A DNA stretch of 64,000 nt, taken from NCBI GenBank assembly GCA_021324365.1, contig JAJPJE010000085.1, forward strand, positions 62,001 through 126,000. The letters run 5' to 3'. The position numbers were made by a program, and so were the translations under genes. The notes under the pieces were generated by a model. The model was not told the origin of the DNA, ran no database searches, and saw nothing but the letters and a program-made list of their open reading frames with translations. Shown in pieces: positions 37,402 to 43,076 of the stretch; the stretch's first letter is position 1, and every line of letters starts with the position of its first letter. Source of the stretch: Terriglobia bacterium (GTDB taxonomy: Bacteria > Acidobacteriota > Terriglobia > Terriglobales > Acidobacteriaceae).

Positions 37402-37478
<77 letters not shown>

Positions 37479-38286: not shown

Positions 38287-38439
38287 CGCAGGTCCTCCAT
38301 TCGCGCGCATGGTATTGCGAATAGAAAGCGGAGTCAATGTTTGGCATCACATAGGCCAGCGGTTTCAGGCGTCAGGAGGCTAGACTTTCCCGCGCCGGCT
38401 CGAACATGTGGCCGGTACTCCTGGCAACGCCGGCCCGTC

Positions 38440-38445
38440 TATAAT
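38440..38445 (+). promoter_or_regulatory. consensus -10 (TATAAT) in front of the 2H phosphoesterase gene
   Basis: TATAAT at 38440-38445 places transcription start near 38452, so only the ATG at 38456 (not 38408 or 38444) would be inside the mRNA, implying a nearly leaderless transcript. Confidence 0.4.
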
Positions 38446-38455
38446 GACGAATGGC

Positions 38456-39010
38456 ATGGAGACGGTACGCTACGCATTAGTGGCATATATCCGGAATGCG
38501 CTAGGCGAGTTTGTGGAGAACCTGCGTAGTGAGCTGCACCCACCTCATGCACACCTCCCCGCCCATATCACTATCCTTCCGCCCCGATGCCTGCGCGGAA
38601 CGGAACAGGAGGCGCTGGAACAGGTCGAAGCGGTCTGTCAGGGCGCCAATCCATTCATCGTCGAGTTGGGGGAAGTGGAAACCTTCATGCCGGTTACGCC
38701 CACCGTATTCATCCGGGTGGCGCATGCGGCCTACCGGATGCGCGAATTGCACGACCAGATGAACCGTGCTTCGCTTTGGGCTGAAGAGAACTGGCCCTAT
38801 ATGCCACATTTGACGATCGCGAAACTGGAGACGATCGAGGCAGCCCAGGAAGCGGAAAACACAGCACGCGAGCGCTGGAGCACATTTCGCGGGTCGCGCC
38901 TGGTTTGTATCGAGGAACTGACATTCGTCCGCGAGGCGTCCGAAGAACGCTGGACCGACCTGGCGCCCGTCCCGTTAGGCAAGCGCGTTGCCCCTATCGC
39001 CGATAAGTAG
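38456..39010 (+). CDS. 2'-5' RNA ligase/2H phosphoesterase family protein
   Basis: About 184 residues with the two HxT/S signature motifs of the 2H superfamily: HITI (about residue 37) and HLTI (about residue 122), plus the PTVFIRV strand. Family members cleave or form 2'-5' or cyclic phosphodiester bonds in RNA or ADP-ribose derivatives. The long frame starts at 38408, but a TATAAT at 38440 makes METVRYALVAYI at 38456 the likely start. Substrate unknown. Confidence 0.82.
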   Translation: METVRYALVAYIRNALGEFVENLRSELHPPHAHLPAHITILPPRCLRGTEQEALEQVEAVCQGANPFIVELGEVETFMPVTPTVFIRVAHAAYRMRELHDQMNRASLWAEENWPYMPHLTIAKLETIEAAQEAENTARERWSTFRGSRLVCIEELTFVREASEERWTDLAPVPLGKRVAPIADK

Positions 39011-39216
39011 GCGATTGTTTACCCTCGAGTAACTAATTTCCACCGACAAATAGCTATTCAGTTACTTGCGGCAAACTGCTGCACGACTGTACATGGCCTG
39101 AATTCGAATTGCGAATGAACTGTTGAAAACGCTACAACTTAGTCTCCGATAAAGGCTAAAGCCCTCCCCCAAGAGGCTTTGCCGGCAGTTTCACTTCGGC
39201 CGAAAGGAAATTCCGT

Positions 39217-40482
39217 ATGCATACCGCCGTGTATGGTTCCGGCTATCTGGGCACGATCATCTCCGCCTGTCTGGCGGATTTCGGATTGCCCGTAACGTGC
39301 TTCGATGAAGACAGTGCACGTTTAAAAGAAGTCGCGCAGGGAAACCTCGGATTCTACGAAAAGAATTTGGAAGAAGTTCTGCGACGCAATGTGCGTGCTG
39401 GCCGATTGATGTACTCGACCGAAGTGGCCGCCACGGCAGCAAAATCCAATGTGATCTTTCTTGCCGAAGACACGCACACCCAGGTTGAAGATCTTGCATT
39501 ACGGCTGGCGCAAATGACACGTCCCCGAACCGTCCTTGTGGTGAGTAGTCCGGTTCCGGTAGGTACCTGTGCTCGCATCGAGCGCCGCATCAAGGACGCC
39601 GGGCTGGCGATCACGATTGTTTCTCAGCCCATGTTCCTAACCAACGGCTGCGCGGTGGAAGACTTCAACTGGCCCGACCGCATTCTGCTGGGAACCAGTT
39701 CCAGCGAGGCTGTCATGACATTAAAGCAGACGTATCGGCCTCTGGTGATGCGCGGGGTGCCGGTCATCGTAACGAATCACGAAACCGCTGAATTGGTACG
39801 CGAAGCGTCGACAGCCTTTGTCGCAACGAAGATTGCGTTCATCAACGAAATCGCCAGCCTCAGCGAACGCGTGAAGGCTGATGCCATGGATTTGGCGTTG
39901 GCGCTCGGCTTGGACAAGAAGATCGGCCCGCGATGCTTGCAGCCGGGATCGGTATTCGCTGGACCATTTGCTGAAACGGAGATGGACTCGCTCGCTACTC
40001 TGGCCAGTGGGAATGGCGTTTCGCTGCGAATCCTCAGCGCAGCGCGCGAAGTGAATCGTTCACTGCCTGACCGTATCGTCGACAAGATCACCTCGCTGGT
40101 CGACAACATAAAGGGCAAAGAACTTGGAATCCTGGGCCTGGCGTTTAAGCCGAATACGAATTACATCGCCGGTTCTACTTCGCTGCTGCTGGCGCGTAAT
40201 CTCATTACGCAAGGTGCACACGTTCGCGCGTACGATCCGGTTGCCGTGTCGGAAGGGAACACCGAGCTGTCAGGTATTCACTGCTGCGTTTCGCCGTACG
40301 CCGCCGCAGAAGGCTCCGACGCTCTTGTGGTCGGCACCGGCTGGCCGGAGTTCCGCGCGCTTGATTTCGAGAAGATCAAGAAACTGCTGAAACGGCCCAT
40401 CATCATCGACACCAAAAACTTGCTCGACTCTGGAAGGCTTCGGTCGATGGGATACCAGTACGTCGGGGTGGGGCGAGCTTAG
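39217..40482 (+). CDS. UDP-glucose/GDP-mannose dehydrogenase homologue lacking catalytic Cys and Glu
   Basis: A 421-residue protein with the full UGDH layout: N-terminal Rossmann domain (VYGSGYLGT, residues 5-13), central helix (ATKIAFINEIASLSE, with conserved Lys205), and C-terminal NDP-sugar domain (LGLAFKPNTNYIAGS). The catalytic loop normally reading GxGFGGSCxPKD is here PGSVFAGPFAETE: Phe251 stands where the nucleophilic Cys should be and Thr254 where Lys is. The catalytic Glu of NPEFL is Met139 (QPMFL). It is therefore unlikely to oxidise UDP-sugars to uronates. A start after AAGGAA is well placed. It may be a sugar-nucleotide-binding or epimerase-like relative. Confidence 0.85.
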   Translation: MHTAVYGSGYLGTIISACLADFGLPVTCFDEDSARLKEVAQGNLGFYEKNLEEVLRRNVRAGRLMYSTEVAATAAKSNVIFLAEDTHTQVEDLALRLAQMTRPRTVLVVSSPVPVGTCARIERRIKDAGLAITIVSQPMFLTNGCAVEDFNWPDRILLGTSSSEAVMTLKQTYRPLVMRGVPVIVTNHETAELVREASTAFVATKIAFINEIASLSERVKADAMDLALALGLDKKIGPRCLQPGSVFAGPFAETEMDSLATLASGNGVSLRILSAAREVNRSLPDRIVDKITSLVDNIKGKELGILGLAFKPNTNYIAGSTSLLLARNLITQGAHVRAYDPVAVSEGNTELSGIHCCVSPYAAAEGSDALVVGTGWPEFRALDFEKIKKLLKRPIIIDTKNLLDSGRLRSMGYQYVGVGRA

Positions 40483-40714: not shown

Positions 40715-40790
40715 GGTGCCTGTAGTTCAGCGGTGGAACGCCGGACTGTGGCTCCGGATGACGTGGGTTCGAATCCCACCAGGCACCCCA
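40715..40790 (+). tRNA. tRNA-His (anticodon GTG)
   Basis: Acceptor GTGCCTG/CAGGCAC with the His-specific extra G-1 at 40715 and discriminator C, anticodon arm CCGGA-CTGTGGC-TCCGG (anticodon GTG), T-arm GTGGGTTCGAATCCCAC and encoded CCA. Confidence 0.97.
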
Positions 40791-40848: not shown

Positions 40849-42186
40849 CTAGTCTTGTGCAGACCAACCTTCCTCGGCAATTTTGCCAGTGATCCAGTCG
40901 TCCAAATGGCTCTCGCTCGTCGAATCCAGGCTGGTGAACTTGACACCGGCTTTGCCGTCGGCGCGCGACCACATCACGGTCCCCTTCGCCTCAATGGTGA
41001 ATCCATTTGGCAGGCAGATAACCAATTCGATAGCGCGATCTCGTCCGTAGAGTCGCGGGTTTAATTTCTGTAGACCCACGCCCGTCTTGCTCAAATTCGA
41101 TGCGACACAGGACGTTTCTCCGTTGGCCGAACGCACAAATACGGGAAACTCAGCATCGGCCCGGAAACACTGTTTTTGTTCACTGTTAAGAGTTCCTAGA
41201 GTATTTCCACTCAGCGGCTCGCTCTTTTTCTTGTATTCGCGTAAGCGCCTGCTCAACGTACGTCGCGAAATGCCGAGACGCTCCGCGGCACGGCCTTGAT
41301 GGCCGCCCGTGCTATCGAGCGCCTGCTGAATTGCGTCCCGCTCCAGCCGGGCGAGGTCGAAACCGGTACCGCGATCGTTTCTTCCGGTCAGGGGGAGAAT
41401 GCCATTGTCATTCACAATGCTGGCAGGCAGATGCTCTTTTCGAATCACCTCGGGGCCTGCGACGGTGGTGGCCTGAAAGACAAAGTTTCGCAGTTCGCGA
41501 ATGTTGCCGGGCCAGCGGTACGACAACAAGGCCTCCTTGGCGTCCTCGGAAAAAGTTGCGCCTGGAGCAATCTGCTGCAGATAGTTCTCGGCGATTGGAA
41601 GGATGTCTGCGACGCGTTCGCGAAGAGGCGGAATCTGCAACTTGAATTGGGCAAGACGATGATAGAGGTCCAAACGAAACTTTCCGTTCGAGTCACTGCC
41701 ATCCAGTGCCCGGTTCGTCGCGGAAATCACGCGAACATCAGTTACGATTTTCTGCTTGCCACCGAGACGATAATACGGGCTCCCATCCAGAACCCGCAGC
41801 AATTTCGCCTGAATCTTGCCGTCGATTTCACCGACTTCGTCGAGAAACAGCGTACCGTGGTTTGCCAATTCGAACATGCCAGGTTTTGACTGATCGGCTC
41901 CGCTAAACGCCCCTCGTTCGTAACCAAACAGTTCGCTTTCGATTAAATGTTCGGGAAGAGCAGCACAGTTCAGATCGATAAACGGACCATCGCGGCGCGA
42001 GGACCGTTGGTGAATCGATCGAGCAACCAACTCCTTGCCCGTCCCGGATTCGCCGGTTATCAGAACAGAACCGCGGCTGTTGGCGACGCGCTCGACTAAG
42101 AGCATCACGGAGCGCATACCCTCGCTGGCGACGATCATTCCCCAGTCGTTCGCGTCCGTTTTCGCTGGCGCTACTAAAGTGCTCAT
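40849..42186 (-). CDS. sigma54-type AAA+ activator with Fis HTH and C-terminal PilZ domain
   Basis: Start at ATG 42186 (AGGAG 7 bases upstream) rather than 42228. Residues about 20-265 form the AAA+ domain: Walker A GESGTGKE, Walker B LFLDEVGE, sensor R-finger region, and GAFSGA where sigma54 activators have GAFTGA. A Fis-type HTH (GHQGRAAERLGISRRTLSRRL) is at about 295-320, and residues about 340-445 resemble PilZ (FRADAEFPVFVRS, then NLSKTG in place of DxSxxG). There is no receiver or GAF sensor at the front. It could couple c-di-GMP to sigma54-dependent transcription. Because the PilZ motif is degenerate, binding is uncertain. Confidence 0.85.
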   Translation of the reverse strand: MSTLVAPAKTDANDWGMIVASEGMRSVMLLVERVANSRGSVLITGESGTGKELVARSIHQRSSRRDGPFIDLNCAALPEHLIESELFGYERGAFSGADQSKPGMFELANHGTLFLDEVGEIDGKIQAKLLRVLDGSPYYRLGGKQKIVTDVRVISATNRALDGSDSNGKFRLDLYHRLAQFKLQIPPLRERVADILPIAENYLQQIAPGATFSEDAKEALLSYRWPGNIRELRNFVFQATTVAGPEVIRKEHLPASIVNDNGILPLTGRNDRGTGFDLARLERDAIQQALDSTGGHQGRAAERLGISRRTLSRRLREYKKKSEPLSGNTLGTLNSEQKQCFRADAEFPVFVRSANGETSCVASNLSKTGVGLQKLNPRLYGRDRAIELVICLPNGFTIEAKGTVMWSRADGKAGVKFTSLDSTSESHLDDWITGKIAEEGWSAQD

Positions 42187-42368
42187 GGTCAGCTCCTCTG
42201 CCCATCCATAGTTGGGCGCCGAGGCCACTCTGGACGCAAAGGTCCGCTTGGGAGGTATAGCTTGCTTGCTAGACGGTACTAAAGGGGTTGGCGGGAAGCA
42301 ATGGACGGAAGAGAGCCGAGGTGACCAAAGTCATCAGTATGGCTGACGAAACCAGGTTTGAGAGCGTC

Positions 42369-43076
42369 CTAATCGGCTGCGACGGAGGCCATTCGACGCG
42401 GACTGAATGCAAAGTAGCCCTTGTAACAGTGGTAAACAGCGATCATGAGAGGCAGAACGAGCAAAGGCGCCTGCCACTCGAAGTGATGATTGAGCGAATC
42501 AAATATGGATGCCACTCCGGCGCTCAACAGGTAATAAGGAAAGGACCACAAGAAGATCCGGTACCAGATCTTGGTCAGTGCTCCGGCTTCAGTTAATGAA
42601 ATGATCGCCGAGACGGGGATTGTATTCGCCAGGAACAAGATTCCGGATGCAACGGACACCCGAAGAGCAGCCGCCAGGAAACTTGATTGGTGAATGGCAT
42701 GGTGAACGACGTAGTTTGCCAAACCAACCGATAGCGCCATATTGAAAAAATTGAACGCTACTTGCACCCATTCAATCTCCCTGCGGGGCTTCTTCAACGA
42801 TTGCACCATCGTTGAACCACATGCCACAAAGAGCGTCTGTAAGAGACCGAGTTCACTGACGCCGAGGAGGATGAACGGCAGATTGATTGACATGTTCCCG
42901 GTGATTCCAGGCAATTTCAGTTTCAACCAACCTGCCAGAAGCGCAACGCCCAGCAGAACGAGAAAGCGTGATGTGTCGCTGCTCTCGAAATGGATTGTGG
43001 CGTAGGCGAACGTCACGAACCCGCACATCACGATCATGATGACGAATGCTGCTGCCGATTTTGACATATCTCTCAT
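42369..43076 (-). CDS. stand-alone polytopic membrane domain, paralogue of the HD-GYP/GGDEF sensor
   Basis: A 235-residue protein with about 6-7 hydrophobic helices and no other domain. It is clearly related to the N-terminal 220 residues of the c-di-GMP protein at 45293: compare KLPGITGNMSINLPFILLG with TLPGINGTMSVNFLFILIG, and FLANTIPVSAIISLTE with FLANTIPVTAIISLTE, then LWSFPYYLLSAG with FWSFPYYLVGAG. No known MASE or MHYT family was recognised. A sensory or partner role in the membrane is inferred. It lies 43 bases downstream of the subtilisin gene on the same strand. Confidence 0.75.
   Translation of the reverse strand: MRDMSKSAAAFVIMIVMCGFVTFAYATIHFESSDTSRFLVLLGVALLAGWLKLKLPGITGNMSINLPFILLGVSELGLLQTLFVACGSTMVQSLKKPRREIEWVQVAFNFFNMALSVGLANYVVHHAIHQSSFLAAALRVSVASGILFLANTIPVSAIISLTEAGALTKIWYRIFLWSFPYYLLSAGVASIFDSLNHHFEWQAPLLVLPLMIAVYHCYKGYFAFSPRRMASVAAD

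Follow-up and report, generated by a model that had tools for sequence, protein, structure and literature searches.

Which role could be played by a protein that has the fold of a UDP-glucose dehydrogenase (UGDH) and carries phenylalanine in place of the catalytic cysteine? Such a protein is encoded within the 64,000 nt stretch of Acidobacteriota DNA analysed here (the window; Table 1). We considered whether it is a maintained protein, which of the catalytic residues are left, and whether it still depends on a catalytic UGDH.

Table 1. Positions of the gene and of the neighbouring features within the window
Feature	Position	Strand	Remarks
UGDH-fold protein, active site replaced (Pro112, Met139, Arg195, Thr199, Phe251, Thr254, Lys400)	39217..40482	+	421 aa
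Codons 243-255, PGSVFAGPFAETE; former GxGxGGSCxPKD loop with Phe251 at the catalytic Cys position	39943..39981	+	calculated from the reading frame
Conserved promoter-like element: GTACATGGCC, 10 nt, TTGCGA (-35-like, 39109-39114), 18 nt, TACAAC (-10-like, 39133-39138)	39089..39138	+	upstream alignments and whole-genome pattern scan
2H phosphoesterase / 2'-5' RNA ligase superfamily protein	38408..39010	+	both HxTx motifs (PF13563); true start maybe downstream, e.g. 38447
tRNA-His	40716..40790	+	syntenic downstream gene; own -10-like box in relatives

A complete protein of the UGDH fold

The open reading frame starts at an ATG, is complete and contains no frameshift. The NAD-binding, central and UDP-binding domains (PF03721, PF00984 and PF03720) were all found well above the Pfam cut-off in the 421-aa protein. 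With the NCBIfam models it reached 286 bits for the nucleotide sugar dehydrogenase subfamily TIGR03026 (cut-off 190) and missed every equivalog cut-off, for example that of TuaD with 298 versus 700 bits. Its best solved relative found by Foldseek is UgdG (4a7p, 36% identity), to which the predicted model (mean pLDDT 82) aligns with a TM score of about 0.85; the model is weak at residues 142-151 (pLDDT <50). The protein is a member of the UDPG/MGDP dehydrogenase superfamily fold, and the claim of an earlier note on this DNA that the fold is kept was confirmed.

Replacement of the catalytic residues

We take Glu161, Glu165 and Lys279 (human numbering) to be residues of the UGDH catalytic site. 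The catalytic positions were mapped by alignment with 4a7p and in an alignment that also contained 28 UGDHs from Acidobacteriota; the orthologue set consisted of 110 full-length rows from genomes of the GTDB family and from genome_contigs, some genomes being entered twice. The roles of most residues follow the description of human UGDH (PMC3184952).

All 28 Acidobacteriota UGDHs were canonical at every catalytic position. In the window protein PGSVFAGPFAETE forms the loop and QPMFL takes the place of the NPEFL motif, as the earlier note had described, with Phe251 at the position of Cys276. This position is Phe in 110/110 orthologue rows versus Cys in 28/28 active controls, and Phe251 is therefore due neither to chance nor to a sequencing artefact. 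The loop consensus of the orthologue family is PRCLQPGAGMGGxFAESDMDSL, the loop of the window protein being slightly atypical.

Most of the remaining catalytic positions are replaced as well. Pro112 stands for Thr131, Thr199 for Asn224, the partner of Lys220, and Lys400 for the Arg of the DGRN motif (DTKN), each in all 110 rows. Lys220 itself (ELIKYAANAF in the human enzyme) corresponds to Arg195 (AELVREASTAF; Arg in 109/110); Lys205, which had been named as the retained catalytic lysine, turned out to be a different one (ATKIAFINE). Glu161 is replaced by Met139 (M, V, I or L across the family), Glu165 by Asn143 (mostly D, P or N) and Lys279 by Thr254 (mostly Ser). Moreover, the Arg of DxRES is Ala318 in the window protein, and Arg260, which in human UGDH extends into the adjacent subunit (PMC3184952), is Lys235. 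The position of Asp280, which is thought to activate the catalytic water (PMC3184952), stays acidic in the family (102 D, 6 E and 2 Q) and is Glu255 in the window protein.

No catalytic cysteine has moved to another position of the loop; the nearest invariant cysteines by sequence are Cys145 and Cys240. Together with Trp152, Arg277, Cys357 and Asp85 they are new invariant residues of the orthologue family. Two-step (thioester-type) oxidation is impossible without the cysteine, and the proposal that this chemistry has been lost was correct; UDP-glucuronate formation is very probably lost with it. Since Pro112, Thr199, Phe251 and Lys400 are invariant and Arg195 nearly so, the pocket has been re-specialised and is not drifting. 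Judged from the alignments, the catalytic set is nearly wholly exchanged for fixed alternatives, with the three-domain architecture retained.

Conservation of the two halves

The mean column entropy in the Phe251-bearing clade was 0.85 for the NAD domain, 0.71 for the central and 0.63 for the UDP-binding domain, compared to 1.11, 1.03 and 1.24, respectively, in the active relatives, where the UDP-binding domain is the most variable; because the two clades differ in depth, only the ordering of the domains was used from this comparison. In the Rossmann motif, which had been described as kept, Gly7 and Gly9 of GxGYxG are retained, Tyr10 is present in 104/110 rows, and the window protein has the NAD ribose acid Asp30. 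Gly12 is found in 91/110 rows, and the ribose acid is lost in 94/110, with His in 93 and Asp in 16, the window protein included. Position 86 (Thr86) varies freely among the 110 rows. Phe310-Lys311, Leu241 and Gly248-Gly249 are kept in the orthologue family. We infer that the NAD half is eroding and that the function rests with the nucleotide-sugar half. As GxGY is mostly kept and the acid at the Asp280 position is retained, NAD binding and some redox or acid–base chemistry would nevertheless be possible.

Distribution, ancestry and selection

An orthologue was present in 67 of the 150 sampled genomes of the GTDB family to which the window belongs and was thus absent from about half of them. 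From genome_contigs came 80 orthologue loci, whose labels give either Acidobacteriota of a Terriglobia/Acidobacteriales type or no more than Acidobacteria. The 110 rows show identities of 57-75% and all lie within one Terriglobales family. No orthologues were found outside this family among the sampled genomes, 396 from the phylum and 299 from the class, the sampling of other phyla being short of saturation; matches outside the family were about 40% identical, and all inspected ones carry the cysteine. Plasmids contained no orthologue (best match 38% identity).

The suggestion to check if homologues with the same loop form a clade was followed with a tree, in which the 23 sampled proteins of this type lie on one side of a branch with a support of 100/100 and thus form a single clade; its stem is long, at 1.65 changes per column. 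The median pairwise dN/dS was 0.11 (516 unsaturated pairs), in agreement with the earlier view of a maintained protein, and the protein length is near-constant across the orthologues. These values indicate that the gene is held under strong purifying selection in soil Acidobacteriota of one family. One orthologue (G053:C168:15509-16252) has an internal TAA stop, possibly by decay or by an assembly error.

Neighbourhood and promoter-like element

The gene lies in a stable syntenic block together with tRNA-Pro and tRNA-His genes. In 96/110 loci it is preceded on the same strand by the 2H phosphoesterase gene, typically with a gap of about 207 nt. The tRNA-His gene follows on the same strand in 83/110 loci, and tRNA-Pro (37402-37478 in the window) lies upstream on the opposite strand in 52/110. 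In the 150 genomes both protein genes occurred together in 60, the UGDH-fold gene alone in 7, the 2H gene alone in 10 and neither in 73, an association that is inflated by shared ancestry and synteny and is no proof of a common pathway. The 2H protein is distantly related to BSU11850 of B. subtilis (PDB 2d4g).

The window and eleven further regions of 13-16 kb, most of them read by eye, revealed neither a consistent polysaccharide or EPS context nor consistently linked pathway genes, and tRNAs were the only Rfam elements in the intergenic region. In a single genome (L093 2167-7269, the same region as L158), as read by eye, the gene follows genes for a putative uronate isomerase, an SDR protein and a hexuronate transporter, probably a uronate-catabolism cluster. 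Further downstream in the window are a sigma-54 activator (40849-42228) with an AAA+ domain, a Fis-type HTH and a C-terminal PilZ domain, without a receiver domain, and a 235-aa protein without Pfam or NCBIfam match (42369-43076), which adjoins a subtilase gene.

A conserved block lies about 125 nt ahead of the start codon; it has the pattern GTACATGTMC-N10-TTGC, and a TAnAnT-like box comes 17-18 nt after it. The copy in the window, GTACATGGCC at 39089, has one mismatch to the strict pattern. The block is also present in three genomes in which the 2H gene was not found (G050, G105 and G133). The exact pattern occurred 29 times in the 150 genomes, 19 times before the UGDH-fold gene and 10 times elsewhere; by chance about 0.0001 matches are expected before this gene and, under uniform composition, 9.8 elsewhere, and a reversed control pattern gave 8. 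A regulon sharing this motif was considered and rejected, the other genome matches being at chance level. By these counts the gene has its own promoter-like element and apparently no shared regulon.

Relation to catalytic UGDH (INDEPENDENCE FROM UGDH)

It is conceivable that the protein is a catalytically dead subunit which assembles with a true UGDH and tunes it. UGDHs are dimers or hexamers whose active site is shared between subunits (PMC3184952), most family genomes carrying the gene also hold a canonical UGDH, and the genome of the window holds two. These are, however, encoded on other contigs, and identity between the protein and the resident UGDHs is as low as about 33-36%. In addition, the genomes G060 (100% complete) and G090 (98%) contain it as the only UDPG_MGDP_dh match, although in these fragmented assemblies a further copy may have been missed. 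A role solely as UGDH subunit is therefore unlikely.

Possible role of the protein

The evidence leans towards a nucleotide- or nucleotide-sugar-binding pseudo-dehydrogenase of the UGDH fold, which would be ligand-responsive or serve as a scaffold. As part of this explanation, and at the same modest level of confidence for the whole, the protein is seen as lineage-specific and vertically inherited. Probably it still binds a ligand and does a different job. The former UDP-sugar cleft would bind a nucleotide or nucleotide-sugar through Phe310-Lys311, Leu241 and Gly248-Gly249, with Arg260 changed to Lys235 and DGR to DTK400; this binding is deduced from residue conservation alone. The ligand would not be oxidised, and the protein would act as a sensory or scaffolding protein, made from its own promoter and working independently of catalytic UGDH. 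Among the roles suggested by the earlier note, a regulatory or non-catalytic binding role fits best. A pathway shared with the adjacent 2H phosphoesterase may be envisaged. More speculatively, a nucleotide-sugar sensor or neo-enzyme of this one Acidobacteriota family could work with the 2H protein on one and the same nucleotide metabolite, as yet unrecognised, and be expressed from a promoter element devoted to this one gene; we regard this as rather doubtful.

The alternative that the cleft was rebuilt for a new reaction, be it a single oxidation or reduction, an epimerisation, an isomerisation or a hydrolysis using the acid at position 255 together with Arg195, Cys145 and Cys240, is a possible but less probable one. 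It is conceivable because the acid is kept (Asp or Glu in 108/110) and new invariant residues are grouped around the old site in the sequence, Cys145 and Cys240 being close in sequence to the former NPEFL motif and the former UDP-sugar loop; the fixed replacements and the mostly kept GxGY also agree with it. A dinucleotide-dependent reaction is nevertheless doubtful, as the NAD ribose acid is mostly lost and position 86 is free. Lys220 and Asn224 have been replaced too, and consistently linked pathway genes are missing. The single oxidation considered earlier is made less likely by the replacement of Lys220, Asn224 and Thr131 and by the His that mostly stands for the ribose acid, though the retained acid at the Asp280 position leaves some room for it; epimerisation found no specific support. 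That the gene is a functionless former UGDH on its way to a pseudogene is very improbable. The lost catalytic residues, the absence from about half of the genomes and the G053 copy with its internal stop would agree with decay, but purifying selection acts across many genera, the length is nearly constant, the replacements are invariant, and the promoter-like element is retained even where the gene order has changed.

Comparison with known systems

A nucleotide-sugar dehydrogenase is, as a matter of routine, annotated as an enzyme that makes UDP-glucuronate, and since the clade passes the TIGR03026 cut-off it would be mis-annotated in this way. Pathway predictions for soil Acidobacteriota would then be wrong wherever this protein is the sole copy. 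The clade may offer a clean natural case of a dehydrogenase fold put to another use, with an eroding NAD half and a UDP-binding half that is held, and it yields a testable prediction of ligand binding. In the open-access literature, subscription journals being mostly outside this scope, we found no description of a UGDH-fold pseudoenzyme or of such a family.

GDP-mannose and UDP-ManNAc dehydrogenases rely on a catalytic cysteine. These enzymes (AlgD, 1mfz; WecC and WbpA types) belong to the same superfamily and give weaker full-length matches, the protein scoring 66-96 bits there versus 286 for TIGR03026. The UDP-glucose 6-dehydrogenases of the TuaD/UgdG type (TIGR03026, NF047673; 4a7p) share the full-length three-domain fold and 36% identity to 4a7p; in contrast to them the protein has lost the catalytic Thr, Asn and Cys together with both Glu and both Lys to other residues, DGR is changed to DTK, and the ribose acid of its family is mostly His. 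With pseudoenzymes in general it has in common that the ancestral fold is retained under selection and the catalytic set is lost. The clade is an uncharacterised variant or subfamily of a known fold and not a new kind of system.
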